Assembly (NCBI RefSeq): GCF_001642955.1
Contig: NZ_LWSK01000061.1
Span: forward strand, 1-34,206
DNA length: 34,206 bases
DNA from: Rubripirellula obstinata
GTDB taxonomy: Bacteria; Planctomycetota; Planctomycetia; Pirellulales; Pirellulaceae
Direction: 5' to 3'
Every line of letters begins with the position of its first letter. Position 1 is the first letter of the stretch. The translations under genes were made by a program, and so were the position numbers. Below are positions 3,860-33,495 of the stretch, piece after piece. The notes under the pieces are model-generated. The model had not been told where the DNA came from. It did no database searches and saw nothing but the letters and a program-made list of their open reading frames with translations.

Positions 3860-4015
3860 AACGCCGTGAAGAGTTTCGGTCCCGGAAAACGCGGATTAGT
3901 TCGTTTAGCCGCGTTGGGCATCGCCCCGCGCGTCGTGCTGGCCCCCACAACGCGCGCCACAGCGCGCGGGGCGATGCCCACGCGGTTAAACAATTTAGAA
4001 ACCCTTCACGGCGTT
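3860..4015. mobile_element. 156-bp MITE-like element with 11-bp target duplication
   Basis: A near-palindromic element that starts AACGCCGTGAAG and ends CTTCACGGCGTT. The middle is also inverted (GGGCATCGCCCCGCGCG against CGCGCGGGGCGATGCCC). It is flanked exactly by the direct repeat GGATGCAGGTC at 3849-3859 and 4016-4026. It encodes no protein. The ends match those of the IS4-family element at 24807-26399: AACGCCGTGAAGAGTTT on the left and AAACCCTTCACGGCGTTGG on the right. It is therefore probably a non-autonomous derivative moved by that type of transposase. Related copies are at 1-43 and 10941-11315. Confidence 0.85.
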
Positions 4016-12468: not shown

Positions 12469-15411
12469 TTACCAATCCAATGGAGCGATCCAGGCCGATT
12501 TGACTTCGGCCACCGACGAATGAAGCACCGACTGGTCGCCAACTGTTATCGACAAATTGGGGCTGGATTCAATCGTCCCCAAACGCGTGACTTTCACTTT
12601 AGCCGCTGTCAGCAAAGCGGCAAATAAATCTGCGTTGTCTGGCGTGGTTTCGATCAGAAAACGTGTGTTGGATTCACTAAACAAAGCTTCAGTGGGCGAC
12701 AAGTCGTCACGACAAACCTCTGCCAGATCCAACTTCATCCCCAAACCGCCCGCCATCGCCATTTCGACCGCCGCCGCAACCAGTCCGCCTTCGCTGAGGT
12801 CGTGACAGGATCGGACTAAGCTCTTCTGCATCGCATCATGGACCGCTGCAAAGGTGACCTTCGCCTGAATCGCATCGACCTTGGGCACTTCGCCGCCCTT
12901 CAAATCGCGAACCAGGCTGAAATGAGATCCACCGAGTTCGGCGTGAGTTTCACCGACCAGGAAGACAACATTGCCAGCTTCCTTGGCGTCCATCGTCACT
13001 GATTTGGAAACATCATCGATTTGTCCCATCGCGCTGATCAGCAAGCTGGGCGGAATCGAAATCGTTTCCTTGTTGCCATCGTCATCGAAGAAACTGAATT
13101 CGTTGTTCAGCGAATCTTTCCCGCTGACAAACGGTGTGCCCAGCGTGATCGCCATGTCTTGGCAAGCGATCGCGGCGCGGACCAGCGATCCCAGTGTTTC
13201 AGCCCGGTCGGTGTATCCCCAACAAAAGTTATCCAGGATCGCAATGCGGCTTGGATCGGCACCGACGGCAACTGCGTTACGCATCGCTTCGTCAATCGCT
13301 GACGCTGCCATGTGATAGGTGTCGAAATCGCCGTAGTGCGGATTCATGCCACACGACAGCACCAAACCACGTCTGGAATCGATCCGTGGTCGGACGACGG
13401 CTGCATCGCCGGGGCCGTCGCATTGGGGACCGACCAGCGGCTTGACCACGCTGCCGCCTTGGACTTCGTGGTCGTATTGGCGAATGACCCAATGCTTGCT
13501 GGCGACATTTAAACTGCTCATCACCTGCAACAGCGTTTGGTGATGATCGTCGGCCGACATCGCGGGAATTTCGATCGGGTCAAACGTGGGCACATCGTAA
13601 TTGGCATCGCGAATGATCGGTGGGCGACCGTCGTGCAAAAACTGCATCGACACATCGCCGACGGTTTCGCCGTGGTAGGTCAACAACAATCGGCCGGTGG
13701 GCGTGAACTTGCCCAACACCGCGGCCTCGACGCCTTCGCTTTCGCACAGCAGACGAAATTCGTCCCATGATTCCTGCGGTACCGAAAACACCATTCGTTC
13801 TTGAGCTTCCGAGATCCAGATTTCGGTGTACGTCAGCCCGTCATACTTAAGCGGAGCCTTGTCCAGCCAAACCTCGGCCCCCAGCTCTTCGCCCATTTCA
13901 CCGACCGCGCTGCTGAACCCGCCCGCACCGCAATCGGTCACGGCGGTAAACAGACCACGATCGCGTGCTTGGATCAGAACATCCAAGACCATCTTTTCAG
14001 TGATCGCGTTACCGATCTGAACTGCGCCGCCGGAAAGTGATTCTGATTCGCTGGTCAGTTCCGCAGAACTAAACGTCGCACCGTGGATCCCATCGCGTCC
14101 GGTTCGCCCACCGATCGCCACGATCAGGTCGTCGGGCATGACTTCTTTGTTTTCCATGCCAACAGGAATGATGCCAGCGTTGCCGCAGTACACCAGCGGA
14201 TTGCCCAGGTACCGTTTGTCAAAATAGACCGCGCCGTTGACCGTCGGGATGCCCATTCGATTGCCGTAATCGCGGACACCTGACACGACACCCTTGATCA
14301 CTCGCCGTGGATGCAGCACGCCCGGCGGCAATTCGTCTGGCTTGATGTCCGGTGGTGCAAAGCAAAACACGTCGGTATTGCAAATCGGTTTGGCACCCAT
14401 CCCGGTGCCCATCGGGTCGCGAATGACTCCGCCGATGCCGGTGTTGGCACCGCCGTAGGGTTCCAGAGCAGATGGGTGGTTGTGAGTTTCGACTTTGAAA
14501 CAGACGTGGAAGTCATCATCAAATTTGACAATGCCCGCGTTGTCTTTGAACACGCTGACGCACCAGTCATCGTCGCCTAGATTTTTGCGGATCGTTTGAG
14601 TGGCTGCAAAGATGGTTTCTTTGAGCATGTTTTCGTATTGGCGTTCATCGCCGAACGGAGTTCCATCGGATTGGGGTCCGCGGTAATGGATCCGTCCCGC
14701 CAACGTTTTGTGGCTGCAGTGTTCGGACCAGGTTTGCGCGATGGATTCCAGTTCGATGTCAGTCGGGTCACGACCGAGTGACTGGAAGTGGTTACGAATC
14801 GTCTGCATTTCGACCAGCGTTAAATACAGTTGTCCTTCGCGCGACAGTGTTTCCAATTCGGTATCGGTCAGCGAGCGAATCGGAATCGTGATCAGTTTGA
14901 ATTCGTAAGACGAACCGATATCGAGTTCATCCATTTCCAAAGGACCGACCACGACTTGTTCGATCGCGTCGTTGGAAAGGGCTCGCCGACAAATCGTTTG
15001 CAGCGAAGTGTCATCCATTTCGCCGAGCCAATACTTTCTCATCGAACGAACGGCGGTGACATCAAAACCGGCATCGCGAGCCGCGCTCAGCGTACTCGAC
15101 GCCACCGGATCCATGACGCCGGGTTTGGGCATCACGTTGACCATGATCGTTTCGGATCCGGGTGCTTCGTTGAGCGTGTCTTGTCCGGCGATCGCGACGA
15201 CGGGCGTTTCGGTAACGCTGTCGGACAATAGTGTGGTCGCCAAACGCGTGGCTTCGTCAAACGCAAATTCGCCTTGCACCAAAAACGATCGCGAAAACGA
15301 GACGGCGACATCATCGCCCAATCCCAATTCGTGAATCTCTTCGGTCGTCCGAACGGCTTCGCGGTCGGCTTGACCTTCGGCCGGGTAAATATCGATTTGC
15401 CAAAGTGGCAT
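12469..15411 (-). CDS. purL: Phosphoribosylformylglycinamidine synthase, PurS-PurL fusion
   Basis: ATP-dependent FGAM synthase of purine biosynthesis (FGAR + ATP + NH3/Gln to FGAM), 980 residues. The first about 165 residues hold two PurS-like domains. The second ([12 protein letters not shown]..., about 95-165) shows the PurS signature best. The PurL synthetase core follows: ETHNHPSA near residue 309, [28 protein letters not shown], and HDLSEGG near 865. There is no C-terminal glutaminase, so a separate PurQ elsewhere must supply ammonia. The length lies between small PurL (about 740) and the eukaryote-like large form (about 1290). It is the first gene of a pair with the ferredoxin protein. 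The start at 15411 fits the conserved [12 protein letters not shown] beginning. Confidence 0.95.
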
Positions 15412-15492
15412 GGTTTAACCTTAGTTGTGTTCAGTTTTAAGTTTTCGATTCAGTCCCGGAGGGCCGGTAGCACGGTGCCGGGCGTGTCACGA

Positions 15493-15604
15493 CCTGTCGG
15501 TTTAATCGACATCTCAGCGGTAATGGTGAGCCGCTGGCCGTAAGGCCTCCGTCAGTGGGTAAGCCCGGCCGCTCACGCGTCCAAGGCTAAATTTAATCGA
15601 CAGG
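15493..15604. repeat. Intergenic inverted-repeat block
   Basis: CCTGTCGGTTTAA at 15493 is mirrored by TTTAATCGACAGG ending at 15604. Inside, GTGAGCCGCTGGCC and GGCCGCTCAC form a second imperfect dyad. It looks like a non-coding dispersed repeat. The 15412-15800 stretch has no credible gene. Confidence 0.5.
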
Positions 15605-15804
15605 CCGGTCGGTCAGCACAGGGAACAATGTATCAATCAACCCTCTCTGCCGCGAGCGATCGGCAGAGACAACCAAGAGGGCACACATCCGGGTGCTACC
15701 GAACAATTCCACTTACTTTAGCCCCGGATGGGCCGTCAGCACGTTGCCGAGGGTCTTGACCCACGTAGCCAAACGCAACCAAAATCGAAGCCCCGGCAGG
15801 CAAC

Positions 15805-16029
15805 CGAGCACGGGGACAGGGCACACGCGGGCGGCGAGAAGACGAGAGGGAGTTACGGCAGCGGTTGTAGGCCGGACGAGCACGGGGACAGGGCACGAGG
15901 AGAAAGCCGAGCACGGACCGAGCACGGGGACAGGGCATGTTCATGATCAATCGGTCTCGCCGAGAACGGGGACAGGGCACAAGCGAGAACGGCGAGAGAA
16001 CGAGAACGACCGAGAACAGGGACAGTGCA
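15805..16029 (+). repeat. Five direct copies of a CGAGCACGGGGACAGGGCAC motif
   Basis: Copies begin at about 15805, 15877, 15919, 15961 and 16011. The first three start CGAGCACGG, the fourth CGAGAACGG, and the fifth is degenerate (AGGGACAGTGCA). Spacing is irregular (72, 42, 42 and 50 bases). They lie just beyond the 3' end of the Y1 transposase gene, and an inverted copy lies upstream of it at 17483-17500. The same core forms both arms of the 80-bp elements further right. Together this is a REPtron-like arrangement. Confidence 0.75.
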
Positions 16030-16229
16030 TGTGTATGATGGTGTATGACCGGTCGCTCCCGCCTGGAAACCTAATTCTAGGCTCGGCTGGGGTGCTTGGT
16101 GGTTGATGACTCGTTTGAGCGATGAATCAACCGAGAGTTGACGCAGAAACGGACGCTTCGGCGCGCAGCATACGGTGGGGCGAAACGTTGGGTCGCCGCT
16201 GAGGGAGAAAGAAGAGACGATGCGGTCGG

Positions 16230-17297
16230 TTAGTCTGCTGTTGGCATTAACCTGCGCACTCGGCGGTGAACTCGGAAACGCTGATGCTTGCGATGGCTGC
16301 GCATCGAGTCGATTGAATCGGGATTTCCGGCCACGTGATGAAACAGCCTGCCAAACCTGCTCACCAATTCGCACCAATTCTCCGGCGCGATCCCCAAACG
16401 CTTAATCACCGGTGGAAGATCGGTCGGCGTCTTGCCTCGCTTGCTTCGGTGACTCTGACGGGCTGTCCAGTCGAGCAGTTCGACATAGTCAAGCAACGAC
16501 ATTGATAGGAATCCTTTCTCACTGCATCGTTTCCCCTCAGCGCTGACGCATGGTCCGGTAGGATCCGACTTTTCATCGATAGACAACGGACTCAAAAAGG
16601 CAGCGGGGTCACGCTGAAAGGACTTCGGTTCGGGGCGTTCAGCTTGGTTTTGCAACCGCATCGCATCAATGCGGAGTTTGGCCGAAGTATGCTCACTCGA
16701 TTCGATCGTCTGACAGATCTCCGCTCGGATGGGGTTCAAATCCACGTAGGCACTGCAAGCGATGATCGAAGCTTCGTCAATCAACCGAATGGCTTTGTAG
16801 CGTTCTTCAAAGAAACGTCCGGTTGCCTGATCTTCGCGGTTACTTCGCATTGCAATTCGCTGGCACAGAAGCCGCATCCACCACGAAACATCGGCCAAAC
16901 GCTCTCGCATCTGCGCTAGCTTGAGCGGGCAATTTCGGATCAGGTTCAGTTCCGCCTCGCTGGGTGCCATCGGCTTGCCTTGCTTGTCGGTTCGGTGCGG
17001 ACAGATCATCAGCCAGCGGCGAGCGACTTCGGTATCGGACCAAGTTCTGACCACGTCGGGCCGATTGCGGAGGATCAAATGAAAATGATTATTGAGCACC
17101 GCGAAGGTCAATAAATCGATACCGAAGTGGGCGGCGAAGTGTTCGAGCCATTCTTCGATCCAGACTTTACGGTGATCGAAATTCTTACCGGTCAGAGGGT
17201 CCTGACCAAAGAGGAAGCACCGTCGAACGGTACGGTTGTAAACATGAACGACATTAATTTCCGATGAGTCAATTACCTCACATCGAGCTTTTCGCAT
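16230..17297 (-). CDS. REP-associated Y1 (HUH) transposase, IS200-like superfamily
   Basis: Single-strand DNA transposase of the REP-associated tyrosine transposase type, 355 residues. The HUH metal-binding motif is H71-F72-H73 (NNHFHLIL). The catalytic tyrosine is probably Y184 in SAYVDLNPIRAEI. Another typical segment is SWWMRLLCQRIAMRSNRED before it, and a C-terminal family segment MSLLDYVELLDWTARQ. The start at 17297 gives the usual short basic beginning followed by VIDSSEINVVHVYNR; the open frame extends to 17336. The gene is bracketed by GGGGACAGGGCAC repeats, which are its likely substrates, although this pairing is inferred from position. No terminal IS ends were found, so it is probably a domesticated or REP-propagating enzyme. 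Confidence 0.85.
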   Translation of the reverse strand: MRKARCEVIDSSEINVVHVYNRTVRRCFLFGQDPLTGKNFDHRKVWIEEWLEHFAAHFGIDLLTFAVLNNHFHLILRNRPDVVRTWSDTEVARRWLMICPHRTDKQGKPMAPSEAELNLIRNCPLKLAQMRERLADVSWWMRLLCQRIAMRSNREDQATGRFFEERYKAIRLIDEASIIACSAYVDLNPIRAEICQTIESSEHTSAKLRIDAMRLQNQAERPEPKSFQRDPAAFLSPLSIDEKSDPTGPCVSAEGKRCSEKGFLSMSLLDYVELLDWTARQSHRSKRGKTPTDLPPVIKRLGIAPENWCELVSRFGRLFHHVAGNPDSIDSMRSHRKHQRFRVHRRVRRLMPTAD

Positions 17298-17457
17298 CAC
17301 GCTAATCCTGATCAGAGGGATCGAACGCATTTGCATCAGGTGGCAATTCGTTCAGTTGGGGTGAGGTTAGCGAGAATGCGACCAGGCTGTCAAATTTTTT
17401 GCAAGCATGCCTCCGTTAGTAACGCAAAACAGGGAAAAACCGTGATCACATTTGCTA

Positions 17458-17724
17458 TCAATTTCCGCAACGATTCGCGCGAGTGCCCTGTCCCCGTTCG
17501 GCTTGGTGTTCGTCAATCGTCACTGGCTTGATTTTGCTCGCCATCAAGCGAGCGCAGCGCTTCGCATCGTTCTCGTTGTCGAGGAAGTCGGCAACGAGTT
17601 CAAATGCTACGGCCATCGGATTCCAGTCGGATACGGTTAACATCACTTCGCCGCGACAGATGTTTTTCCATTTGATTTCTGTCGGCTTCGCGAATCCGGT
17701 GCAGGGTTTTGTTATTCGCCGCAC
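17458..17724 (-). pseudogene. Small protein truncated at a GGGGACAGGGCAC repeat
   Basis: An 88-codon frame follows and overlaps the glycohydrolase stop, starting at a GTG inside that gene. Its middle (VMLTVSDWNPMAVAFELVAD and NENDAKRCARLMASKIKP) has the composition of a real protein. The last residues (ERGQGTRANRC) are read from the REP motif at 17483-17500, so the original C-terminus appears lost. I do not recognise the family. The start is uncertain; M at 17643 is another option. Confidence 0.4.
17483..17500 (-). repeat. Inverted GGGGACAGGGCAC copy upstream of the Y1 transposase
   Basis: Reads GTGCCCTGTCCCCGTTCG on the plus strand, which is opposite in orientation to the five copies at 15805-16029. 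It also supplies the 3' end of the broken frame 17458-17724. The rest of the 17298-17457 gap shows no feature. Confidence 0.75.
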
Positions 17725-18698
17725 GCTTGCGTCTGCAACCGATTCTCAAGCAACCAATGGTATCTGACGGCAAGTGCCGCAATGGACTCTGAATCTTGTA
17801 GATCCGCGACGAGATTGGCGGGGATGCCTTCAACGCCGTGGATAGCACCGGACATCGCGCCAACAATTGCCCCCAGTGTATCGACATCACCGCCAAGTTG
17901 CACGGCAGATGTGACTGCGTCAATCCAGGAGTTTCGGTGTTGGTTAATGCAGTAGATCGACGCAAGTACCGTTGGAATCACGAAAGGCGAAATGATCGGC
18001 TCAGTGAATTCGGCGGAAGGTTGGCCAGCGGCAGCGATGAATTTTTTGCAATCGGGTGAGCGACTCCGATCGGGCAACGCCCGAATGAGACTGGCCAGTT
18101 CGGTGTCGATTGGGTCAATTGAATCGGCAAGTGCGTTGCACAATTCTGCTGCACCAATCGTGTGATCGGATGCAAGTATGTTTGCTGCAAGCGCAATGAC
18201 AACGCCACCTGCGATGCTGCGTGGATCTTGATGCGTGAGCCTGGAAATGTCGGCAACGGTCGAAACCAACGAATGGCGATCGTTACCAAACCACAGCCCG
18301 ATCGCTGCAGTTCGCATGGCAGTTCCGTTACCAGCCTGGCCAACAGGTGCACCCATATCGAAATGGTTGCCAGTTGCGAGGTATTTTTCGGCGGCTTGAG
18401 TGCAGGCACCGCCTGGGCCGATCACCGAGTGATGACGCCAAAGCTCGGAAATGGAACGTGCAACATCGGGGATGACGATGTCGCCGTTTTGCACAATGGA
18501 TTGGATTGTCGCGATCGTTAGCTGCGTGTCGTCGGTGTATTGACCGGACGGGTATCCATGATATTCGTGGAACGATGAAGCAAGAGATTCCGCATTAGGG
18601 ATATCATCGGACCACAGTCCCTCGAACGGTGCTCCCATCGCGTCGCCGACTGCACCGCCAATGAGCATTCCAATGACGATTGAGCGGGAAAGCATCAT
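17712..18698 (-). CDS. ADP-ribosylglycohydrolase (DraG family)
   Basis: Metal-dependent hydrolase that removes ADP-ribose from proteins or other molecules, 328 residues, full length. Seen motifs are the N-terminal GGAVGDAMGAPFEG (14-27), the di-magnesium site YTDDTQLT (T55, D56, D57), and the C-terminal GGDVDTLGAIVGAMSGAIHG (D271/D273, T274). The start ATG overlaps the stop of the upstream 104-residue gene (ATGA). That gene in turn overlaps a 109-residue gene (TAGTG), so the three form one coupled unit. A macrodomain gene encoded 1 kb upstream on the same strand suggests a local theme of ADP-ribose reversal. The substrate is unknown; no ADP-ribosyltransferase was seen in the window. Confidence 0.93.
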   Translation of the reverse strand: MMLSRSIVIGMLIGGAVGDAMGAPFEGLWSDDIPNAESLASSFHEYHGYPSGQYTDDTQLTIATIQSIVQNGDIVIPDVARSISELWRHHSVIGPGGACTQAAEKYLATGNHFDMGAPVGQAGNGTAMRTAAIGLWFGNDRHSLVSTVADISRLTHQDPRSIAGGVVIALAANILASDHTIGAAELCNALADSIDPIDTELASLIRALPDRSRSPDCKKFIAAAGQPSAEFTEPIISPFVIPTVLASIYCINQHRNSWIDAVTSAVQLGGDVDTLGAIVGAMSGAIHGVEGIPANLVADLQDSESIAALAVRYHWLLENRLQTQACGE

Positions 18699-19009
18699 GA
18701 TTGATAACGGTGACGCAAGTGGCGAAGTAGGGGAAAGGATTCTGACGGCCCGTGGATCATTCGAGTCTGCAGGTGCGACTGAAACGGATCATTATTAATC
18801 TCAGACTCAATGAAACGCAATAAATGGCGTTGCTGCGAGTCGTTGAGGTCCATGAAATGGAATCCAGCATCCTCCTCAGGGTGCCAATGAAGATGACCAT
18901 TTTCGAGAAAGTCAAGCCAATGTTCGAGCGACATATACACGTCACAAGGAAGACCAATGGCGTGCAAAGTGGGCTGATGTCTCGCGATCCAATTGTGCCA
19001 ATCAAACAC
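18695..19009 (-). CDS. Small conserved-looking protein coupled to the glycohydrolase
   Basis: A 104-residue, His/Trp-rich soluble protein of unknown family. It starts with GTG, overlapping the upstream TAG by one base, and ends in ATGA overlap with the glycohydrolase gene. Such tight coupling argues that it is real and works with the enzyme. Notable segments are WHNWIARHQPTLHAIGLP, VYMSLEHWLDFLENG and LHWHPEEDAGFHFMDL. It has no signal peptide or membrane segment. A role as an accessory or immunity-like subunit is speculation from size and context. Confidence 0.75.
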   Translation of the reverse strand: MFDWHNWIARHQPTLHAIGLPCDVYMSLEHWLDFLENGHLHWHPEEDAGFHFMDLNDSQQRHLLRFIESEINNDPFQSHLQTRMIHGPSESFPLLRHLRHRYQS

Positions 19010-19338
19010 TAACTACGCCTGTGGGCAATTTCAAAAATGGCAGTTCGGGCAGCCTTCGCGATTTCCGGATCGCGATGATTTTTTAGGGGAGCGAGCAATT
19101 CAATGTCCCCCATCGTTCCGATGACAAACAGGTATGCAATCGCGCCCATAAGTAAATCCTCCCTATGGTCGTCGATCGCTTGCCGGCATGATTCAAGCAG
19201 TTCTTCTTCCGCGTCTTCAGTTGCGTTGAGCACCGTGCGGACACTGCTGCGAAGTCCGTCTTGGCGAATCTGGACGTACTCTGGTTCCGCGCAGGAATGG
19301 CCCACACGCGAGAGCAGACGTTCATGGATTGGATTCAT
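19009..19338 (-). CDS. Small HEAT-repeat-like protein
   Basis: A 109-residue helical protein, the first gene of the coupled trio leading into the glycohydrolase. The C-terminal half (MGDIELLAPLKNHRDPEIAK, then ARTAIFEIAHR) reads like one HEAT/Armadillo repeat; the rest is acidic helix. No enzyme motif is present. It could be a binding partner, for example an immunity-type or adaptor protein, but nothing in the sequence decides this. Confidence 0.7.
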   Translation of the reverse strand: MNPIHERLLSRVGHSCAEPEYVQIRQDGLRSSVRTVLNATEDAEEELLESCRQAIDDHREDLLMGAIAYLFVIGTMGDIELLAPLKNHRDPEIAKAARTAIFEIAHRRS

Positions 19339-19411
19339 GTACGTTCCGAAATTATGAATGGCATCTCAGTCGGTTAGCATCCGATTTTAGTGAGTTGGGA
19401 AAGTTGCTCGA

Positions 19412-19708
19412 CTATCCATGATCCGAGGGAGCCGAATAGATAACAGAACCGCATTCATCAAGGATTGAATCGAGTTCGTTGTAGCGAATGTATCGTCCAC
19501 CTTGATGCTGATGCCTTGGATGATTTTTAGGTATCAAGGCGTCGAACCCGCCGATGCCTTCGGGATCATCTGATGGCGAAGTAACCGAAATCTCGTTGCC
19601 TCTGAGCAGACGCTCACTTGTTCCGTCTAAATAACGGACGATGAAAGCGTCGGGTAAGTCAAGCGAAAGTAGTTCGTCACCGATGTCCATTACGTGAGGC
19701 CATTTCAC
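19412..19708 (-). CDS. Hypothetical small protein
   Basis: A 98-residue acidic protein with a beta-rich look (DAFIVRYLDGTSERL, RYIRYNELDSILDE). No family is recognised. It lies 73 bases upstream of the HEAT-like gene and 64 bases downstream of the macrodomain gene on the same strand, so it may share their transcript. The second ATG (19690, MDIGDELL) is a reasonable alternative start. Confidence 0.55.
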   Translation of the reverse strand: MKWPHVMDIGDELLSLDLPDAFIVRYLDGTSERLLRGNEISVTSPSDDPEGIGGFDALIPKNHPRHQHQGGRYIRYNELDSILDECGSVIYSAPSDHG

Positions 19709-19772
19709 AAAGCATGGGATTGTTCTAGTCGGATTAGGACGCCGCCCACGAATGCTCCGCTAAATGCGACGG

Positions 19773-20330
19773 TTATCCGCTGCTATGAAGGTCATCGGGT
19801 GCGTCAAGAACGCGGTAGTCGACGTCGGCATCTGAGAGGCGGTCCGTGTATATCCGAAAGTCGCGTGGGTCGTAGCAGCAGAGTACCACAGCAGCGGGGC
19901 TCTCGCAGGAACCGACCCACTGCACGACAGTCCCGACAGCAACTTCACAGGCTTGAACGGCCGGATACCCATACGCACCAGTCGAAATGCACGGAAAGGC
20001 GACGGAGCGTAACGCGTTTGCAACAGCAAGTCTTAGTGATGCATTGTACGCGCCAGAAAGCAAAGCATCCGCAGGTTGGTCATGCCCATAGATCGGTCCG
20101 ACAGCATGAATGATATACTTGCAATTCAGGTTGAATGCAGGCGTGATCCTCGCTTCGCCGGCGGGACATGGAGCAAGCAAGCGGCATGCTTCAAGCAGTT
20201 CGGGACCAGCCAGGTCATGGACAGCACCGTCAACGCCGCCGCCACCGATCAGCGCGGAGTTTGCAGCGGTTACGATTGCGTCCACCGCTAGCTCCGTGAT
20301 GTCTCCTTGGTACAACGCAATTCGGGTCAT
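19773..20330 (-). CDS. Macrodomain protein (O-acetyl-ADP-ribose deacetylase-like)
   Basis: A complete 185-residue macrodomain of the MacroD/YmdB type, which binds ADP-ribose and commonly hydrolyses O-acetyl-ADP-ribose or mono-ADP-ribose on proteins. Motifs are GDIT (9-12), [11 protein letters not shown] with the catalytic-type Asn, the glycine-rich loop [10 protein letters not shown] (30-39), and the phosphate loop ISTGAYGYP. The C-terminus extends past the core with an unusual acidic tail. A 545-bp segment that covers most of this gene and its upstream region is repeated nearly perfectly at 21461-22005. With the glycohydrolase it makes two ADP-ribose erasers in 3 kb. Confidence 0.93.
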   Translation of the reverse strand: MTRIALYQGDITELAVDAIVTAANSALIGGGGVDGAVHDLAGPELLEACRLLAPCPAGEARITPAFNLNCKYIIHAVGPIYGHDQPADALLSGAYNASLRLAVANALRSVAFPCISTGAYGYPAVQACEVAVGTVVQWVGSCESPAAVVLCCYDPRDFRIYTDRLSDADVDYRVLDAPDDLHSSG

Positions 20331-20465
20331 TCGATCGGATCAGTCGGATGAAAAAAGGTTTCCACGTCGCCGCCACGAACGAAGTGCTTGTTTTTGTGTT
20401 GCGACAGATTGTACCAATGCAAACGCCCGTTGCCAAAGATCGCAGGTGATACCGAAGGCACTAGT
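19921..20465. repeat. 545-bp duplicated segment, copy 1
   Basis: Covers the first 137 codons of the intact macrodomain gene and 135 bases upstream. Comparing base by base with 21461-22005 I see one difference (G at 19950, T at 21490), which is synonymous in the macrodomain frame. The constant offset is 1540 bases. Homology ends at a CTAGT shared by both copies. Confidence 0.95.
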
Positions 20466-20500
20466 GCAAAAACCTTGTTGTACGCCCACCACGCTGCGAA

Positions 20501-20881
20501 TCACGCACGACATTCCATGACGAAGCCTTCGTGAAAGAAGTAGGCGGCAAGTTTTCCGGGCACGATGGAGAATACGGCGTCATGGCCAGTGCCGAGTTCA
20601 ATTGCGCGTTGCCCCGTTACAAGCAAGGGCGGGTAATCGGCATGGAATTCAAAGAACATTCCAACAGTCGCCGGATCAATCAAAGTTGGTTCAGGTGATT
20701 CCGTGCAGCATGATTTGTCGAGATGTTCGTGGAGCTTATGAGAGTTTTTGAAGAGCTGTTTGGGCCGCGATGAGAACAGATGCATCCAACGGTCGCGGCG
20801 TTCACGTTTGATAAACGCGGAAACGAATGCAGCCATGTGCGTTTGGTAAACATCATCAGGGCATTCGGGATCGGTGTCCAT
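20501..20881 (-). CDS. Hypothetical protein, 126 residues
   Basis: No recognised family. It is rich in His, Phe and charged residues, with a basic N-terminal third (SAFIKRERRDRWMHLFSSRP) and a hydrophobic C-terminal part (GMFFEFHADYPPLLVTGQ, KLAAYFFHEGFVMECRA). There is no signal peptide. It lies upstream of the macrodomain gene on the same strand. This gene appears complete, unlike its neighbours to the right. Confidence 0.5.
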   Translation of the reverse strand: MDTDPECPDDVYQTHMAAFVSAFIKRERRDRWMHLFSSRPKQLFKNSHKLHEHLDKSCCTESPEPTLIDPATVGMFFEFHADYPPLLVTGQRAIELGTGHDAVFSIVPGKLAAYFFHEGFVMECRA

Positions 20882-20936
20882 GTTTCGATCTCTTGGGCTT
20901 ACAGCGTGCTACTAGTCGTCGAAAGACCGGAAATGT

Positions 20937-21326
20937 CTACATTTGGTGTGTCACAGAACTAGCCAAATGGGGACAGGGCACCATCACGCTTGCTATCATT
21001 CCAGTGAAGAACCTTCGTCGTGCCCTGTCCCCGTTCTGTCGTTCGACACCATCCTGCGCAAGAGCCAAGCACCAGACAATAAGGATTACTGAAGGAAGAC
21101 GATAGCGCCACGCAGGAATCAGGAAGCCAACAATGAAAAAAGCGGCACACCAGCGGTAGTGACCAACTTCAGCACCTGGGACGTACGTCACGACCAAACC
21201 GAAAGCGAAGTTCAAGGCCGTAAGCCAGAAGATCGGCTTGAAGATGTAGCGAACAATGGATTCGTATCGCGTTCGAGTCGTGGAAGGCTCCGGTGGGGTG
21301 TCCAAGTGAGGTGTTGACACATTCAC
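20937..21326 (-). pseudogene. Three-helix membrane protein truncated by an 80-bp element
   Basis: The N-terminal about 95 residues encode three likely membrane segments (FWLTALNFAFGLVVTYV, WCAAFFIVGFLIPAW, LPSVILIVWCLALA). After DGVE the frame runs into the 80-bp element at 20961-21040, which supplies the last about 30 residues ([12 protein letters not shown] and on). The original C-terminus is therefore lost. It probably starts at a GTG, 21326 or 21320. Family unknown. Confidence 0.55.
20961..21040 (+). repeat. 80-bp palindromic element, copy A
   Basis: Starts AGCCAAAT, then GGGGACAGGGCAC, a 38-base loop, the perfect inverse GTGCCCTGTCCCC, and GTTCTGTC. All four copies are identical over 80 bases, loop included. 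The arms use the motif that surrounds the Y1 transposase gene. This copy ends the membrane-protein frame. Confidence 0.95.
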
Positions 21327-21367
21327 GTTCCTATTTGCATCCTTGCGTTGAAAAGCCAAATGGGGAC

Positions 21368-21447
21368 AGCCAAATGGGGACAGGGCACCATCACGCTTGC
21401 TATCATTCCAGTGAAGAACCTTCGTCGTGCCCTGTCCCCGTTCTGTC
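21368..21447 (+). repeat. 80-bp palindromic element, copy B (nested in remnants of another)
   Basis: Identical to copies A, C and D. It is flanked on the left by an extra left end (AGCCAAATGGGGAC, 21354-21367) and on the right by an extra right end (CGTTCTGTC, 21450-21458). It therefore looks inserted into, or recombined with, an earlier copy. It caps the truncated second macrodomain copy. Confidence 0.95.
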
Positions 21448-21870
21448 TGCGTTCTGTCGCTGCACGACAGTCCCGACAGCAACTTCACATGCTTGAACGG
21501 CCGGATACCCATACGCACCAGTCGAAATGCACGGAAAGGCGACGGAGCGTAACGCGTTTGCAACAGCAAGTCTTAGTGATGCATTGTACGCGCCAGAAAG
21601 CAAAGCATCCGCAGGTTGGTCATGCCCATAGATCGGTCCGACAGCATGAATGATATACTTGCAATTCAGGTTGAATGCAGGCGTGATCCTCGCTTCGCCG
21701 GCGGGACATGGAGCAAGCAAGCGGCATGCTTCAAGCAGTTCGGGACCAGCCAGGTCATGGACAGCACCGTCAACGCCGCCGCCACCGATCAGCGCGGAGT
21801 TTGCAGCGGTTACGATTGCGTCCACCGCTAGCTCCGTGATGTCTCCTTGGTACAACGCAATTCGGGTCAT
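21403..21870 (-). pseudogene. Truncated second copy of the macrodomain gene
   Basis: The first 137 codons equal those of the intact gene at 19773-20330, including GDIT, the GGGGVDG loop and ISTGAYGYP. After GTVVQ the frame enters element B and ends with [18 protein letters not shown]. The last about 48 residues of the native protein are missing. Both ADP-ribose loops remain, so residual binding cannot be excluded, but it is most likely a decayed duplicate. Confidence 0.85.
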
Positions 21871-22005
21871 TCGATCGGATCAGTCGGATGAAAAAAGGTT
21901 TCCACGTCGCCGCCACGAACGAAGTGCTTGTTTTTGTGTTGCGACAGATTGTACCAATGCAAACGCCCGTTGCCAAAGATCGCAGGTGATACCGAAGGCA
22001 CTAGT
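21461..22005. repeat. 545-bp duplicated segment, copy 2
   Basis: Near-identical partner of 19921-20465, with one mismatch seen. Its left edge lies 13 bases from the 80-bp element B. After the right edge at CTAGT the sequence (22006-22104) is unrelated to copy 1 and shows no recognised gene. Confidence 0.95.
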
Positions 22006-22104
22006 CCCTAAATAAGTATGTCGCGAGGGGATTTTCCTTACTTCGAGACCGCGCAGCATTTCTTTGCTGGCGTAGCCAGTGGCGTTGCTTGGTGGTTTTC
22101 GTGG

Positions 22105-22184
22105 AGCCAAATGGGGACAGGGCACCATCACGCTTGCTATCATTCCAGTGAAGAACCTTCGTCGTGCCCTGTCCCCGTTCTGTC
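22105..22184 (+). repeat. 80-bp palindromic element, copy C
   Basis: Identical to A, B and D. It lies 30 bases upstream of the TPR-like gene start. Unlike the other copies it does not cap a clear minus-strand gene; on its left is about 100 bases of unassigned sequence. Confidence 0.95.
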
Positions 22185-22214
22185 CGTTGCTGTTGAGAAA
22201 AGGAGATAGAACGA

Positions 22215-22769
22215 ATGGATGTTGACTCTTTGACTGAGAAATCTGGCGACTTGCTTGAGGCAGGCCAGCTCAAAGAACTAGAGGCATTGCTTGACAATGA
22301 AATTGGTGAGTACGACGCACCCGACCGCGATACTGTTGGTATTTAATATTACGAACAGGTCGGAGCGTACGAGAAAGCACTTTCGCTGGCTTTGCGTGTT
22401 CTCGAATACAAAGCATGGGAAGCCCTCTCGTCGGAAATCAGATACTCACGTTTACTCGCCATGGCGGGTCACGCCGAACGGGCATTAGAGATTTTGAAGG
22501 TCATTCGTGACAGCGGACGAATTAAACCACACTATGAAAGCGGAATGGCCAGGGCTTTCCTTACTGCCACGATTTGCGCGGCGGCTCAAACGACTGCGTC
22601 CTTTGTCATTCGTCGAGAAGCCCTGCAGCTAGCTCTTGAAGAGATAAAAGCGGGTGCAGCCACGGCTCCTCAAATGCAACGTGAAGTAATTGACGGATTA
22701 AGAGATCTTCAAGACGACCCAACAGTCACGCGGCTTACCACGGAGTTGACATCCTTGATTCCGGTGTAG
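22215..22769 (+). pseudogene. TPR-like helical protein interrupted by an in-frame stop
   Basis: A good Shine-Dalgarno (AAGGAGA) precedes ATG 22215. The frame runs 43 codons (MDVDSLTEKSGDLLEAG...), meets TAA at 22344-22346, then continues in the same frame with YYEQVGAYEKALSLALRVLE and further TPR-like helices to 22769. Removing the stop would give an about 184-residue TPR-type protein. A sense codon such as CAA or AAA changed to TAA is the simplest explanation. Restart at TTG 22392 is possible. It is the only plus-strand gene in this cluster. Confidence 0.65.
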
Positions 22770-22780
22770 AAGAATTCAAA

Positions 22781-22860
22781 AGCCAAATGGGGACAGGGCA
22801 CCATCACGCTTGCTATCATTCCAGTGAAGAACCTTCGTCGTGCCCTGTCCCCGTTCTGTC
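22781..22860 (+). repeat. 80-bp palindromic element, copy D
   Basis: Identical to A-C. On its left it begins 12 bases after the TPR-like stop. On its right it caps the truncated nucleotidyltransferase gene, supplying the last 13 codons. Confidence 0.95.
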
Positions 22861-23418
22861 CTTCGCCAGCAGTTCTGCGCCGAGCGGCGTGACGTTTTCG
22901 ACGATCGGTGAATAGAGACATTCCAGCACGTTCGGGTTCGCCTTGAGCGCGAGCACGATGAACTTCTGCAACTCCCAGTACACTTCCTGCGTTTCATCGT
23001 TTTCGAGTTGCTCGGGAACGCCGTACAACGACCAATGCAGATCGGCGGTTGGTAAGTAGATACCACGACGATCGGTGTCGGACGCTTCATCATCCAGTCC
23101 GTAAGCCCGCGAGCCGATCACGCAGCGATAGATGACTCGTTCGTACAGCCCGGCACTGGCCAGCGATGCATCGGCGTCGCGAATCGTTTGGCTTTTGAAC
23201 TCCGCAAGCCGAACGAGTTGGTCGTGATGGATCGGAGCCTCGAAGCCGTCGCTGAACTTCACTCGGTAAGCATGCGTTCGATCGACTGGGCTGCGGACGA
23301 TGACGCCAACGGCACCGGCCGGATGAGCAATGCGATCGTTCGCCGCCATCACGTCTTTCTGCGCAACGACCTGCGTGCCGACGGAGTAGATCAGGTTGGA
23401 TTCGTTCGACACGGACAT
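22816..23418 (-). pseudogene. Nucleotidyltransferase fragment (YcgL/COG3541-like), 3' end lost
   Basis: About 186 native codons remain. The nucleotidyltransferase signature is IGSRAYGLDDEASDTDRRG (GS followed by DxD), in the style of predicted nucleotidyltransferases of the COG3541 group. The N-terminal about 70 residues form a small beta domain (AGAVGVIVRSPVDRTHAYRV). After GAELLAKD the frame runs into element D and ends [13 protein letters not shown], so the rest of the catalytic and helical part is missing. It starts 12 bases after the stop of the HNH fragment, so the two were probably one operon. Confidence 0.75.
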
Positions 23419-23430
23419 TCGACTGGCGAT

Positions 23431-23694
23431 CTAAAGCTCGGGAAAGACGCCTTCGGTGATCAGTTGGCGTCGATGGGAGACGCGGTGCGAGGCGTTGATT
23501 TGCAGGACGGCGATGGTTGCTCGTCCCGCACTGGTCTTGCCGACCAGCAACGGACCTTGCCATGCAAAATGATCCGGCCACACGTCAACGCGAGGGTCAA
23601 ACAAGAACGCTTTCTCGCCGGTCTCGGCATCAATGCCGGCGATGTTGGGGCCTTTGTGGTTGTTGCAGAACGAGCAAACGCTCTGCCAGCGATC
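23431..23694 (-). pseudogene. HNH endonuclease C-terminal fragment
   Basis: Reading right to left the frame gives SVCSFCNNHKGPNIAGID, then TGEKAFLFDPRVDVWPDHF, then GRATIAVLQINASHRVSHRR and a stop at 23431. This is the conserved C-terminal portion of small HNH nucleases, which bind DNA and cut with a His-Asn-His centre; CNNHKGPNIAG is a family signature. The N-terminal part, including the first metal-binding half, is missing. An in-frame TAA sits just upstream (23695-23697), where sequence belonging to the recombinase element begins. This fragment was too short for a standard start-to-stop search. Confidence 0.7.
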
Positions 23695-23803
23695 TTAACT
23701 GCTGTCGATCCAAAACCGCCCGCACGGTAATATCAATCGAAGCTCTGCTGGCTTTGGCAGAATGGTCGATTTGCTATCAAAACTCGGTTCAAGGAGACGG
23801 ACC

Positions 23804-23994
23804 ATGCGAGACGACGAAACGAGGATTCCCCCCCGCGCCTAACGAATCGGATCCCGCTGAGCGAATTGTGGACGGCAGTCCCTGCGGAGAACCAACAACG
23901 CGTTCTACAAGTTCTTGCGAACCTTGTGACGACCCAGCTTTTGGCTCCTCGGAGCGAACAGGAGGGAAGTCATGAAGACTCTCGAAGCAACTGA
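23804..23994 (+). pseudogene. Small ORF before the serine recombinase, frameshifted in a C-tract
   Basis: AAGGAG precedes ATG 23804. The frame (MRDDETRIPPRA) stops at 23840 just after a run of seven Cs at 23828-23834. One more C would continue in the frame that reads RLTNRIPLSELWTAVPAENQ, then QRVLQVLANLVTTQLL, to a stop at 23992-23994. That continuation resembles the short helical protein often encoded before recombinases of this type. It overlaps the recombinase start by 23 bases. The cause may be mutation, slippage or a sequencing error. Confidence 0.6.
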
Positions 23995-24817
23995 CTCAGT
24001 GGCAAGTTCCACGGCTCATCCGGCCGCGGCCATTCGGTCATCCAAGATCGAGCTTTCGCATCTCGAACGTCTTGCGATCGTTTACATTCGTCAATCCTCT
24101 CCGCACCAAGTTCTGGAGAATCGTGAGTCAACGGCGCGACAATATGCTTTGGTTGAACATGCGATAACGATGGGATGGTCGAAAGATCGTGTTCTCGTGA
24201 TTGATGAAGACCAAGGACAAAGTGGCAAGTCTGCCGAGAATCGTTCGGGATTCCAACGACTGCTAACGGAAGTCACGATGAATCACGTCGGGATCGTTTT
24301 TGGACTCGAAATGAGCCGCTTGGCTCGCAGTTCAAAAGACTGGCATCACCTGCTGGAAGTTTGCGCGATCTTTGACACCTTGCTGGCCGATCAAGACGGA
24401 GTTTACACCGCATGCGATCCAAACGATCGTTTGCTTCTAGGACTGAAAGGAACGATGAGCGAAGTCGAACTTCATACGATGCGCAATCGCCTCCGGCGAG
24501 GCGCGCTCAACAAAGCACAGCGAGGGGAACTGTTCCATGGCGTGCCTTTTGGGTACGTCATACTACAGAATGGCGAAGTGGCATTTGATCCTGACGAACA
24601 GGCCCAGCACGTCGTACGAATAATCTTTGAGAAGTTCGACGAGCTTGGTGCGATTTACTCGCTCTTTCATTACCTGGTTCGCAACGGCATCGACCTTCCC
24701 GTTCGCGCGAAGTCGGGACAGCGAAAAGGTGAGCTGGATTGGCGGCGACCGTCTCTGGCAACTCTTTGCCAGATGCTGCATCACCCGATCTATGCGGGGG
24801 CCTACTCAACGCCGTGA
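23972..24817 (+). pseudogene. Large serine recombinase, C-terminus removed by an IS
   Basis: The N-terminal resolvase domain carries the catalytic serine (YIRQSS, S42), DEDQGQSGKSAENRSGF, GLEMSRLARSSKDW and the EVELHTMRNRL helix. A recombinase domain follows (about 180-281; RRGALNKAQRGELFHGVPFG, HHPIYAGAY). AGGAGG lies eight bases before ATG. The frame ends two codons into the IS at 24807. Family members usually run to 500-700 residues with a zinc-ribbon and coiled coil, so more than half of the DNA-binding region is gone. It probably belonged to a small transposon that had itself inserted into the HNH gene. Confidence 0.88.
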
Positions 24818-24870
24818 AGAGTTTTTGCACGGCAAAAACCGCTGTTTCGCTAATCCCTCATAAATGAAAA

Positions 24871-24927
24871 GGTCAGATTCCCCCCAACACCTAACTGAAA
24901 ACGATTCAGTCGGAAAGGAATCTGACC
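24871..24927 (+). promoter_or_regulatory. Hairpin that pairs the transposase ribosome-binding site
   Basis: GGTCAGATTCC (24871-24881) and GGAATCTGACC (24917-24927) form a perfect 11-bp stem whose right arm runs up to the ATG at 24928 and overlaps the AAGGA site. A smaller ACTGA/TCAGT stem lies in the loop. In a read-through transcript the ribosome site would be hidden, a known kind of safeguard in other IS elements; its use here is inference. Confidence 0.65.
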
Positions 24928-26382
24928 ATGTCTCAAAAAAAATCCGCCAAGCAGGCCAAGCGTTCACAAACAAGGCAGCGTCGTGAAAATAAGAAGGCTC
25001 GCAAAGCCAAGAAACGAAGCAAGCGATCTCATAAGCAAGACGCCAATCGGGCAATCAAACAGTTCTTTGGTACCGGTGATATCTTCGCCAACTATCAGTT
25101 CCATGGCAACATCACTTGGTCGGCCATGGAACTCTGCAAGCTCGCGTTGTTGTTTTCGCTCTCAGAAAAGAAGTTTGTCACCGACGCATTCGATGAAACA
25201 TTAAAACGCGGGCGGCAACTTGCCATCAGTACCACTCACACGACCTATCAAGGATTCATGGGAGCATTGACCAACTACGGACACATTTTTGTTCCCTTGA
25301 TGATCCTACGGCTCCAGCAGCAGATGCAAAAACTCGGTGGCGAGCTTTGGGAAATCTCTGGATTCGTTCCTATTGCGTTTGATGGGTCTCGCAACAGCGC
25401 CTCGCGAACTCGTTCCAACGAACAGGAGTTGTGTTCGTCAAAACTGAGAAAAAAGCAGGCCGCCGCAAAGTCCAAAACCGTGATCGATCCCAAGCCACAG
25501 GCCTGGATAACGTTGATGTGGCACATGGGTTTTCGTCTACCTTGGAATTGGCGACTGGGACCGTCGGACTCAAGTGAGCGAGCGCACGTGCAAGAGATGG
25601 TCGAGAACGACAACTTCCCTGAGAACACGCTTTTTGTGGGGGATGCGGGGTTTGTAGGTTACGATTTCTGGATGACGATGGTCAGTCGCGGGTATCATTT
25701 CATGGTCCGCGTGGGCAGCAATGTGAAGCTGATTAGCGAGATCGTTGACTTCCAGCTCACCGAAGGCGGAGAAGTGCTTTGTTGGCCCAAGGGGAAGCAA
25801 GGTCAACAACCGCCACTGCGATTGCGTCTGGTTCAGGTGAAGATTGGCAATGCGGAAGTTTACCTTTTGACGAGTGTCCTATCGCCAGCACGACTGTCAG
25901 TTGAAACGATGGCGGAGCTGTACAAAAAAAGGTGGGGAATTGAAATCGAATTTCGCGGCCTCAAGCAAACCTTAAACGGTCAAAAACTTCGCTGCCGCAA
26001 TGTCGATCGGTTGTACACAGAATTGCATTGGTCGATCCTTGCGATGGCGGTCGCCGAGTTGCTTGCCGTTGGTGAACAGCTCAGCAACCCGGACCGCGAT
26101 CCCAACTACACTCCCAAAGATCGGAGTCTGGCAGGCACGATGCGAGCACTCTACGACTGCCTGGACGATCTTCACACGTATGCGCTGGAGGGCGAGGATT
26201 TATTCAGTCGCCTCGCTCGCGCAGTGACCGACAACTACGAACGCAATCACTCCAAGCAGGCTCGCTTCAAACCCAAGGTATCCGAGAAAAAGAAGAAGAA
26301 AATCAAACCACCCGAAGTCCGCCCCATCGAGAAAGAAGAACGCGAAAAGCTACAGCGAATTGATAACAACACGGCTGCATAA
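24928..26382 (+). CDS. IS4-family DDE transposase
   Basis: Intact 484-residue RNase H-fold transposase. Catalytic residues read as D152 (PIAFDGSRNS), D239 (FVGDAGFVGYD) and E339 within the IS4 signature Y(2)R(3)E(6)K (Y332, R335, E339, K346). The first 40 residues are very basic (Lys/Arg-rich), as is a C-terminal tail ending in KKKKIKPP, both suited to DNA contact. The gene occupies nearly all of the IS, and its stop lies 17 bases before the right terminus. Translation may be restrained by the hairpin just upstream. It is a candidate driver of the MITE family. Confidence 0.93.
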   Translation: MSQKKSAKQAKRSQTRQRRENKKARKAKKRSKRSHKQDANRAIKQFFGTGDIFANYQFHGNITWSAMELCKLALLFSLSEKKFVTDAFDETLKRGRQLAISTTHTTYQGFMGALTNYGHIFVPLMILRLQQQMQKLGGELWEISGFVPIAFDGSRNSASRTRSNEQELCSSKLRKKQAAAKSKTVIDPKPQAWITLMWHMGFRLPWNWRLGPSDSSERAHVQEMVENDNFPENTLFVGDAGFVGYDFWMTMVSRGYHFMVRVGSNVKLISEIVDFQLTEGGEVLCWPKGKQGQQPPLRLRLVQVKIGNAEVYLLTSVLSPARLSVETMAELYKKRWGIEIEFRGLKQTLNGQKLRCRNVDRLYTELHWSILAMAVAELLAVGEQLSNPDRDPNYTPKDRSLAGTMRALYDCLDDLHTYALEGEDLFSRLARAVTDNYERNHSKQARFKPKVSEKKKKKIKPPEVRPIEKEEREKLQRIDNNTAA

Positions 26383-26523
26383 AACCCTTCACGGCGTTGG
26401 ACGACGCCCCTTTCGCGTAACGGCTTCGTCAACGGATGATGATGAGGCCGGTAAGAAAAAAGCAGGACGCGAACGGGAGGTTTCGAGAGCGGATGGGGCA
26501 AGTGTTGGTGCCGGGGAGCGTGA

Positions 26524-26553: not shown

Positions 26554-27013
26554 GCTTGAGGAATTTACGAACGACGAGTGGATCGCGACCATTCGCGATG
26601 TGTTTGCGTCCGGTGATGCTTTAACGCGAGATGATGCGGCTCGGCTTGTTTTTGACTCGCTGCGGGAACAAGGACTGGATGCGAAACGCTTGACATCGGG
26701 GATTCGTGATTCGGTCAATGGATGGTTCCGCACGGCCGTGCGACGTGGCGTCATCGCGCGAGTCGGCCAATCGTACGAGATGGATTGCCGCACCATCGAC
26801 GACTACCCACGCGACCTATTAGTCTCTTCGCTGGCGTCCGCGATTGGTCGCACGTGGCACTCGCGCGAGGATGCGATCCGGGCCACGGCCCGTCATCTGG
26901 GCTTTCGACGCACGGGATCAAAAATCAAATCAGCCATCAAGTCCGCAATCAATGCCGGCATCCGCCAAGGCAAGATCGAGCGAGACGGCCCGCAGAATAT
27001 CCGAAAAGTGTAG
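26554..27013 (+). pseudogene. C-terminal remnant of a DUF3320-like (large helicase) protein
   Basis: The frame open from before 26360 to 27013 has no credible start. The part after 26554 (EEFTNDEWIATIRDVFASGD, then SREDAIRATARHLGFRRTGS and SAINAGIRQGKIERDG) is helical. It resembles the C-terminal winged-helix/DUF3320 segment of very large SF1 helicase proteins found in defence-rich regions. Everything N-terminal is lost, replaced by a low-complexity linker, a dispersed repeat and the IS. The stop codon TAG is formed by the GTAG of the REP at 27010. The family call is moderate; loss of the 5' part is clear. Confidence 0.5.
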
Positions 27014-27063
27014 TGGATCTTGTTAAAGATCCGCGCAAAAGGATCTTTTACAAGATCCACTAC
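27010..27063. repeat. GTAG-TGGATCTT REP pair, copy 1
   Basis: Left unit GTAGTGGATCTTGTTAAAGA (27010 on) and its inverse ending ...GATCCACTAC at 27063. Each unit is GTAG plus a perfect 7-bp hairpin (GGATCTT / AAGATCC). The same family surrounds the second Y1 transposase at 32346-32927. Confidence 0.9.
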
Positions 27064-32165: not shown

Positions 32166-32188
32166 GGATCTTTAACAAGATCCACTAC
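32166..32188 (-). repeat. Single REP unit
   Basis: GGATCTTTAACAAGATCC followed by ACTAC, the inverse of the GTAG-TGGATCTT unit, 45 bases after the ATPase stop. Confidence 0.9.
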
Positions 32189-32240
32189 GAAGAGTTGGGT
32201 TTTACCTGCCGAGCTCATCTTGTCGTAGTCGATCATCAAG

Positions 32241-32316
32241 GTAGTGGATCTTGTTAAAGATCCTTTTTGGCGGAGGGATTTGGTATGATTGTGGGATCTT
32301 TAACAAGATCCACTAC
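32241..32316. repeat. GTAG-TGGATCTT REP pair, copy 2, upstream of the transposase
   Basis: Units at 32241-32263 and 32294-32316 in inverse orientation with a 30-base spacer. Lies 29 bases before the start of the Y1 transposase. Confidence 0.9.
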
Positions 32317-32345
32317 GGGATTTACGAGAATTAGGGGGGATTGGT

Positions 32346-32927
32346 ATGTCGAAGCGGGATCATTTGAAGCGACTGCCGCCGGAGCATTACCGTGGATTGG
32401 CGATGGTCCATTGGTCACTGACCATTCGCGAACGAAAGACAGGTTGGCTGGCTGTTCCGTTCTTTTATCGCTTTCGTGAGTTACTGGCACACACGTGTTT
32501 CCGCTACGGAATTGCTTGCCCGATGTTTTGCTTGATGCCGGATCACTTTCACATGCTTTGGGTGGGATTGTTTAATGGTTCAGATCAATTGCTGGCGATG
32601 AAGCACTTTCGCAAGTCTGTGAATGAGTCATTGAAACGGATCAAGTTTGATTTGCAGGATCAAGCCTATGATCATGTCCTGACAGAATCCGAACGCAGCG
32701 AGGATTCGTTTCGCGAGGTTTGCGACTACATCGCTCGCAATCCAGAGCGAGCGGGGTTGGTTCCGGTCGATGAATACGCGAAGTATCCGTACACTGGCGT
32801 TGTCGTTCCGGGTTATCCGCAGCTTCGGCCGTTTGAGGCGAGCTTTTGGGATGAATTTGATCGAACGGTGTCCTATCTGAGGAAGGAAGGTTTGCTGCGG
32901 TTTGAGATGGGTAGTGGATCTTGTTAA
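32346..32927 (+). CDS. REP-associated Y1 (HUH) transposase, second type
   Basis: A 193-residue REP-associated tyrosine transposase. HUH motif H67-F68-H69 (LMPDHFHMLWVG), catalytic tyrosine Y128 in CDYIARNPERAGLV, and the usual helix between (LAMKHFRKSVNESLKRI). It differs from the 355-residue transposase at 16230-17297 in length and sequence and belongs to another subfamily. REP pairs of the GTAG type lie immediately upstream and downstream. The last residues (GSGSC) and the TAA stop are read from the downstream REP itself. It probably nicks and propagates these REPs; this is the standard model for such genes rather than something shown here. Confidence 0.9.
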   Translation: MSKRDHLKRLPPEHYRGLAMVHWSLTIRERKTGWLAVPFFYRFRELLAHTCFRYGIACPMFCLMPDHFHMLWVGLFNGSDQLLAMKHFRKSVNESLKRIKFDLQDQAYDHVLTESERSEDSFREVCDYIARNPERAGLVPVDEYAKYPYTGVVVPGYPQLRPFEASFWDEFDRTVSYLRKEGLLRFEMGSGSC

Positions 32928-32977
32928 AGATCCTGAGCGAATGGTTGGGGATGAGGATCTTTAACAAGATCCACTAC
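32911..32977. repeat. GTAG-TGGATCTT REP pair, copy 3, containing the transposase stop
   Basis: Units at 32911-32933 and 32955-32977, inverse to each other with a 21-base spacer. The transposase TAA at 32925-32927 is the GTTAA of the first hairpin loop. Confidence 0.9.
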
Positions 32978-33030
32978 GGGGAGAGCTAGTTCGCTGTCAA
33001 TGTCCGAGAAGCCGGAGTGCGATGCGAAAG

Positions 33031-33495
33031 TTAGCTCACTTCGCATGTGTCTTTGGTGCAGCGGCCGGTGAGTCGGAGGCGGTTTTTGGCGAAGAGGTGG
33101 TAGCCGAAGTCCATGGCGTGCGAGATGCCGGGCAGGCGGGTTGGCCAGACGAGTCGGCCGAAGCCGACGGCGGCGTAGAGCTGGCGGAAGACTTCGACGC
33201 CGATGATCCATTGGGCAGGCTGGCCGTCTTTGGCGGGTAGGCGGCCGTGAATTTCGTCCATGAATTGGTCGGGCGTTTTGCCGTAGTCGGCGGCGGTGAA
33301 TTCCGCGGCGGCGATGTCGGTGAAGCGGATGTTCTGCTTGCGGTCGAGCCAACGCAGGAGTTTGATCTCGCGGATGCAGAGTGGGCATTCGCCGTCGTAG
33401 AAGACTTCGACGGTGTGGGTGTCGGTAGTGGATCTTGTTAAAGATCCGGTGGGGGAGGGATCTTTAACAAGATCCACTACGGGGGAGTTCGTCAT
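33031..33495 (-). CDS. DUF393 (DCC family) thiol-disulfide oxidoreductase-like protein
   Basis: A 154-residue thioredoxin-fold protein with the DCC-family motif YDGECPLC near residue 33-40 and the conserved [16 protein letters not shown] and C-terminal [11 protein letters not shown] segments. Its ATG overlaps the SOUL gene stop (ATGA), which supports this start. Codons 6-24 (VVDLVKDP ... SLTRSTT) are read from a REP pair lying inside the gene, so the N-terminus carries an in-frame insertion ahead of the fold. It may act as a small redox partner. Whether the insertion harms function is not clear, because it precedes the first strand. Confidence 0.85.
33425..33480. repeat. GTAG-TGGATCTT REP pair, copy 4, inside a coding region
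   Basis: A 56-bp inverted pair with a 10-base spacer, lying within the first 25 codons of the DUF393 gene without breaking its frame. Confidence 0.9.

Follow-up and report, generated by a model that had tools for sequence, protein, structure and literature searches.

REPIN-like elements at broken and duplicated genes in Rubripirellula obstinata

Seven near-identical copies of an 80-bp element

How did four identical palindromic repeats come to lie beside gene ends in one short stretch of a planctomycete genome? The DNA that we analysed, called the window here, is a contig of 34,206 nucleotides (C266) from the 6.58-Mb, 307-contig draft of Rubripirellula obstinata. A sequence-only reading had described four 80-bp copies that all point the same way. 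These are indeed identical: copies A (20961 to 21040), B (21368 to 21447), C (22105 to 22184) and D (22781 to 22860) are exact 80-mers, collinear and all on the plus strand, and exact 80-mer matches averaged 0.00 over 100 shuffled sequences. The architecture is also as described, with perfect 13-bp arms, GGGGACAGGGCAC and GTGCCCTGTCCCC, around a 38-nt loop; single-stranded folding of the element gave z scores of -3.6 and -4.6. Contig C116 carries the other three of the genome's seven copies, designated E, F and G. On that contig their arms begin, in order of position, at 137, 2368 and 3447, all on the minus strand. Relative to the window copies, each has a single change, a substitution in two of them and a one-base insertion in the third, copy E. 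Four identical copies and three with one change each uphold the earlier suggestion of recent spread. Exact GGGGACAGGGCAC sites number 30 in the genome, and 14 of them are arms of the seven copies. On one strand, all seven have GGC|T ends.

The sequence-only reading had proposed looking for the 80-mer in related planctomycetes. That search came back empty: there was no match in 146 other relatives when the best six candidates per genome were scored, a procedure that also missed copy E of the genome itself, owing either to the scoring limit or to the one-base insertion. Inverted arms with any spacer of 20 to 50 nt were found in 0 of 196 other genomes, and no exact 50-mer of the element was found in genome_contigs. 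C116 DNA had no match in 116 other relatives, a weak negative with the best two candidates scored per genome. No relative yielded an empty site for the element, and an Rfam scan of window positions 15000 to 25000 gave no match at gathering thresholds.

Kinship of the element with RAYT genes

The earlier reading had set the element apart from REP pairs. This contrast is not supported, since the element itself consists of two inverted REPs and matches the flank of a RAYT gene. The window encodes a RAYT-type HUH/Y1 transposase (16233 to 17336, minus strand), which matches NF047646 (REP_Tyr_transpos) at E 3.9e-7. Its 30.1 bits lie below the curated cut-off of 80, which is set at equivalog level and is not what defines a RAYT; hence we call the protein RAYT-type and not an equivalog. 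Over its full length, the element can be aligned with the 5' flank of this gene (approximately 17410 to 17500, minus strand) and with that of a paralogue on contig C2, whose protein is 94% identical. Two further alignments are to C244, where the sequence resembles a RAYT end, and to C78, which has a longer REPIN-like copy. For the window RAYT, the C2 RAYT, C244 and C78, the loop alignment beat 1997, 1988, 2000 and 2000 of 2000 shuffles, respectively. Downstream of the window gene lie four more REPs (15812 to 15980, plus strand), three being exact GGGGACAGGGCAC and one having a single change.

Among 15 aligned sequences of this RAYT family, H84, H86 and Y197 of the HxH and Tyr motifs are invariant; we take these to be the HUH and catalytic Tyr residues of the RAYT family. 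NF047646 matches all 15 (best E 3.2e-12), while Pfam Y1_Tnp matches 11 of the 15 at E<=1 (best 0.00016; the window RAYT only weakly, at 0.036). In a PDB profile search with the family, transposases matched only at E about 0.2.

The kinship extends to RAYT loci elsewhere. We found 88 such loci in genome_contigs and retained 80, which by their titles are all planctomycete except for three gammaproteobacterial ones and two named only "bacterium". The heptamer GGGGACA/TGTCCCC occurs within 600 bp at 27 of the 34 near-full-length loci that we examined and is absent at seven; at 23 it brackets the gene in inverted order, GGGGACA upstream and TGTCCCC downstream. Mononucleotide shuffles predict 0.04 to 0.32 occurrences per locus. 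More than 1500 bp from the gene, the heptamer is present at 11 loci and absent at 23. The 34 loci are not all independent, since 10 come from Neorhodopirellula pilleata. Eight of the nine RAYT units listed for that species have ends in common, differing at one or two bases, and the RAYT there looks multi-copy as a whole unit. By eye, six of the eight have partial tandem copies of their ends just outside. Copy B of our element has similar partial end copies on both sides: 14 nt of its AGCCAAATGGGGAC end on the left (21354 to 21367, plus strand) and an 11-nt repeat of its other end, TGC plus GTTCTGTC, on the right (21448 to 21458, plus strand), both read from the sequence. Separately, in the Pirellulaceae MAG M30B19 (L114, 402 to 5538), kilobase arrays of dozens of GGGGACA/TGTCCCC repeats flank a RAYT gene on both sides.

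To which known class does the element belong? Like the REPINs of Bertels and Rainey (2011, PMC3116915), in the parts of that paper relevant here, it is an inverted REP pair with a spacer that can form a hairpin in single-stranded DNA, and it matches the flank of a RAYT, in this case one of the same genome; its copies are near-identical. Seven copies are few for a REPIN family. Neither a GTAG nor a CGTC foot is present: the arms are bordered by AGAAC and by ATTTG, which reads CAAAT on the opposite strand, and the element is therefore not placed in the REP super-families tagged by those feet. GTAG REPs have been reported in the PVC superphylum, and the string GGGGACA is absent from that report (PMC3733652). 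Class 3 TnpA_REP/RAYT REPtrons, according to the relevant passages of PMC6006769, occur principally in Planctomycetes, Acidobacteria and Proteobacteria, with atypical structures flanking the gene and a CnGA foot. The CAGA within ACAGAAC would fit that foot, as a likeness of class only; unlike what the same passages describe, other REPs of this genome (for example CCAAAC and GAGCAC) miss CnGA, and the N. pilleata RAYT unit looks multi-copy. Within the portions of the REPIN/RAYT literature covered here, we found no description of GGGGACA-type REPINs, or of REPINs at broken genes, in planctomycetes. The window also holds palindromes of the GTAG type (27010 to 27063, 32166 to 32319, 32911 to 32977 and 33425 to 33483) and a RAYT-like gene belonging to them (32346 to 32927; 40.6 bits with NF047646, below its cut-off of 80). 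Similarity to the congener G019 breaks off at 32985, about 8 bases from the end of one of these palindromes.

Perhaps the repeats are integron attC sites? As in a cassette array, small genes stand between repeats of one direction, and the genome does have an integron-like attC array with small cassettes, on C108 (L037, 1 to 6065). However, neither RYYYAAC nor GTTRRRY occurs on either strand of the element or of the 20-base flanks of copy A, several of the segments between copies are broken genes, and kinship with RAYT ends already explains the element's sequence. We consider attC sites extremely improbable. As far as sequence comparison can tell, the element fits a REPIN associated with a RAYT. 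A remnant of the C108 attC repeat does lie at window positions 20355 to 20486, with five clustered matches each in the congeners G001 and G019.

Gene breaks beside the copies

With the element read as GACAGAAC...ATTTGGCT, broken genes precede copies B, D and G, and the breaks lie 12, 2 and 1 bases, respectively, from the same element end. Two of the three are duplications. At B, a 546-bp segment (21460 to 22005, minus strand) contains the attC-like remnant and the 5' part of a macro-domain gene; it matches 19920 to 20465 with one mismatch, and the intact gene (19773 to 20330, minus strand; PF01661, E 1.5e-37) lies 1.5 kb away. At its far edge, 22005, the duplicate does not adjoin the gene located before the intact copy but a 99-bp segment, of which we found no second copy in the genome. 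At G, 127 bp repeat without mismatch the start region of an 88-aa gene, which is intact 3.6 kb away, and the far edge of this duplicate is lost at an end of C116. The intact macro-domain gene belongs to a minus-strand run (17712 to 20881) that also includes an ADP-ribosylglycohydrolase gene and small genes, four of which gave no match above the cut-off in a Pfam scan.

The break at D is of another kind. Here an RlaP gene (22863 to 23418, minus strand) is cut after about codon 185, at GCGA|TGCG. The gene is intact in G019 (945 bp from its ATG; 98.4% identity over the common part), where a second RlaP gene comes next. For both the missing 3' part and the second RlaP gene, a search of the R. obstinata assembly gave no match at E<=1e-6; a draft gap is possible. 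The G019 genes that precede RlaP, presumably SOUL and DUF393, are found at 33 to 34 kb in the window, separated from the RlaP fragment by 9.5 kb of other DNA. Since RlaP follows these genes in G019, we take the fragment to be native. In genome G058 (L070, 8908 to 12438), the order of the RlaP, second RAYT and 33.5-34 kb gene regions differs from that in the window, and it differs from G019 for the two regions that both have; this hints at a rearrangement hot spot.

Three copies, A, B and D, had been proposed to end truncated genes. This was borne out for B and D, and at B the cut gene copy proved to be a duplicate of an intact gene, which had not been mentioned. To the right of A, a 95-aa ORF of the minus strand ends (21041 to 21325); it occupies the space before B, looks membrane-like by eye and has no Pfam family at E<=1. 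Copy C has no visible break and is followed, after about 30 bp, by a plus-strand ORF; by eye, the ORF between C and D (22215 to 22769, plus strand, in-frame TAA) appears to have both start and stop. Next to E comes an LRR ORF for which no start codon was seen before the element is reached; it is likely cut. Copy F may be a simple insertion in a PEP-CTERM gene: with the two sides joined into one protein, the matches of three of six relatives weakly span the join (E 8e-5 to 1e-3), or of one of six upon re-alignment. The association of copies with broken genes thus holds for B, D and G, is likely for E, and is without a proven break at A, C and F. REPINs usually, though not by definition, lie outside genes; B, D and G adjoin broken genes, and the settings of A, C, E and F appear mixed.

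Could the island have decayed from other causes, the REPINs merely landing in it? Agents of decay are at hand in a serine recombinase (23972 to 24817), the DDE transposase of an IS4-type element (24928 to 26382), the second RAYT (32346 to 32927) and the attC-like remnant, and the copies without a proven break are in keeping with such a history. Chance landing is nevertheless disfavoured, because B, D and G all have their breaks 1 to 12 bases from one particular end of the element, and we think decay from other causes unlikely.

None of the seven right flanks continues the macro-domain, 88-aa or RlaP gene. Because no copy bears the matching other half, the breaks at B, D and G are not simple insertions; flanks have been exchanged or lost. 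The same result weighs against misjoining of flanks at the 80-bp repeats. The draft is fragmented and C116 starts inside a repeat, as an assembly artefact might predict, but no permutation of the seven right flanks restores any of the three genes, and the junctions of B, D, E and F have filler or variant bases of their own. We regard an artefact as very unlikely.

Do the two contigs belong together? The 3' half of an HNH endonuclease gene lies at 23434 to 23679 (minus strand) in the window and the 5' half at 3970 to 4143 on C116; the 5' half ends at C116 position 4143, the 3' half starts near window position 23679, and each adjoins a piece of a serine recombinase gene. In relatives both halves form one ORF: a joined query, containing one join residue of our choosing, matched 46 of 147 genomes (R. 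obstinata included) at E<=1e-10, some only in part, and the G080 ORF matches its residues 1 to 132. In the window, the recombinase gene beside the split HNH gene is cut by the IS4-type element, and the two together span 23972 to 26399. The last 134 bp of C116 are 97.8% identical to the start of this IS, as we place its limits, and the window runs past the IS into other DNA. A gene split over two contigs and whole in relatives suggests that C116 and the window form one array. If they join at the IS, all seven elements would point one way, although the two recombinase pieces may belong to different genes.

How the arrangement may have arisen

Our preferred reading, to which we give a probability of about 0.6, is that the element is a non-autonomous REPIN that inserted recently in a mosaic island and that its copies then recombined. 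The mobiliser would likely be the window RAYT or its C2 paralogue, and some insertions into the accessory island would have fallen inside genes. Near-identical copies in the same direction could then recombine, through unequal exchange of the RecA type or, alternatively, RAYT strand transfer at the GGC|T end, which is conserved. Such exchange would remove the downstream part of RlaP and leave the truncated macro-domain and 88-aa duplicates. With insertion first and exchange between direct copies later, one could account for the lost 3' part, the truncated duplicates, the shared orientation and the near-identity of the copies; the far edge of the macro-domain duplicate at 22005 needs an extra step. 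Recombination between copies, one of the two roles that the sequence-only reading had raised, is thus the explanation that we favour.

The other role, capture or joining of gene ends, was not demonstrated. In its RAYT-driven form, the transposase would cut at the GGC|T site at the 3' end and at a distant upstream site, and gene pieces would travel with the element and stack like cassettes. Published TnpA_REP cleaves at C|T beside REPs and, in vitro, also at some distant, discrete sites, according to the parts of PMC8266576 that bear on this. Conservation of the GGC|T ends in all seven copies would suit such cutting, as would the position of the duplicated gene pieces, which B and G have on one common side, and the single direction that the copies would share if C116 is a continuation of the window. 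So would the first missing native base, which is T at all three testable breakpoints; a TG target rule is a lead from three provable cases, too few to establish it. Yet a unit of passenger plus element was not seen at two places, no donor with the element inside the macro-domain or 88-aa gene was found in the genome, and the RlaP fragment shares a contig with its native neighbours, at a distance of 9.5 kb. RAYT-driven capture therefore seems doubtful to us. That an HUH transposase of the domesticated type stacks hairpin-ended units of gene pieces one way, integron-like and without an integrase, is a more speculative idea that we hold to be quite improbable.

How does recombination between REPINs compare with what is known? 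The sections of PMC3116915 considered here report clusters of almost identical REPINs whose flanks are repeated. By comparison with the REPINs of those sections, the present element lacks a GTAG tag, has few copies and is clustered at broken genes, and what is duplicated beside it are truncated pieces of genes, the intact copies of which are without the element. The locus offers a recent example, still readable, of a gene deletion and duplications with REPIN copies at them, and it bears on the effect of REPINs on genome stability. It also connects REPs of the GGGGACA type with a large RAYT family of planctomycetes.
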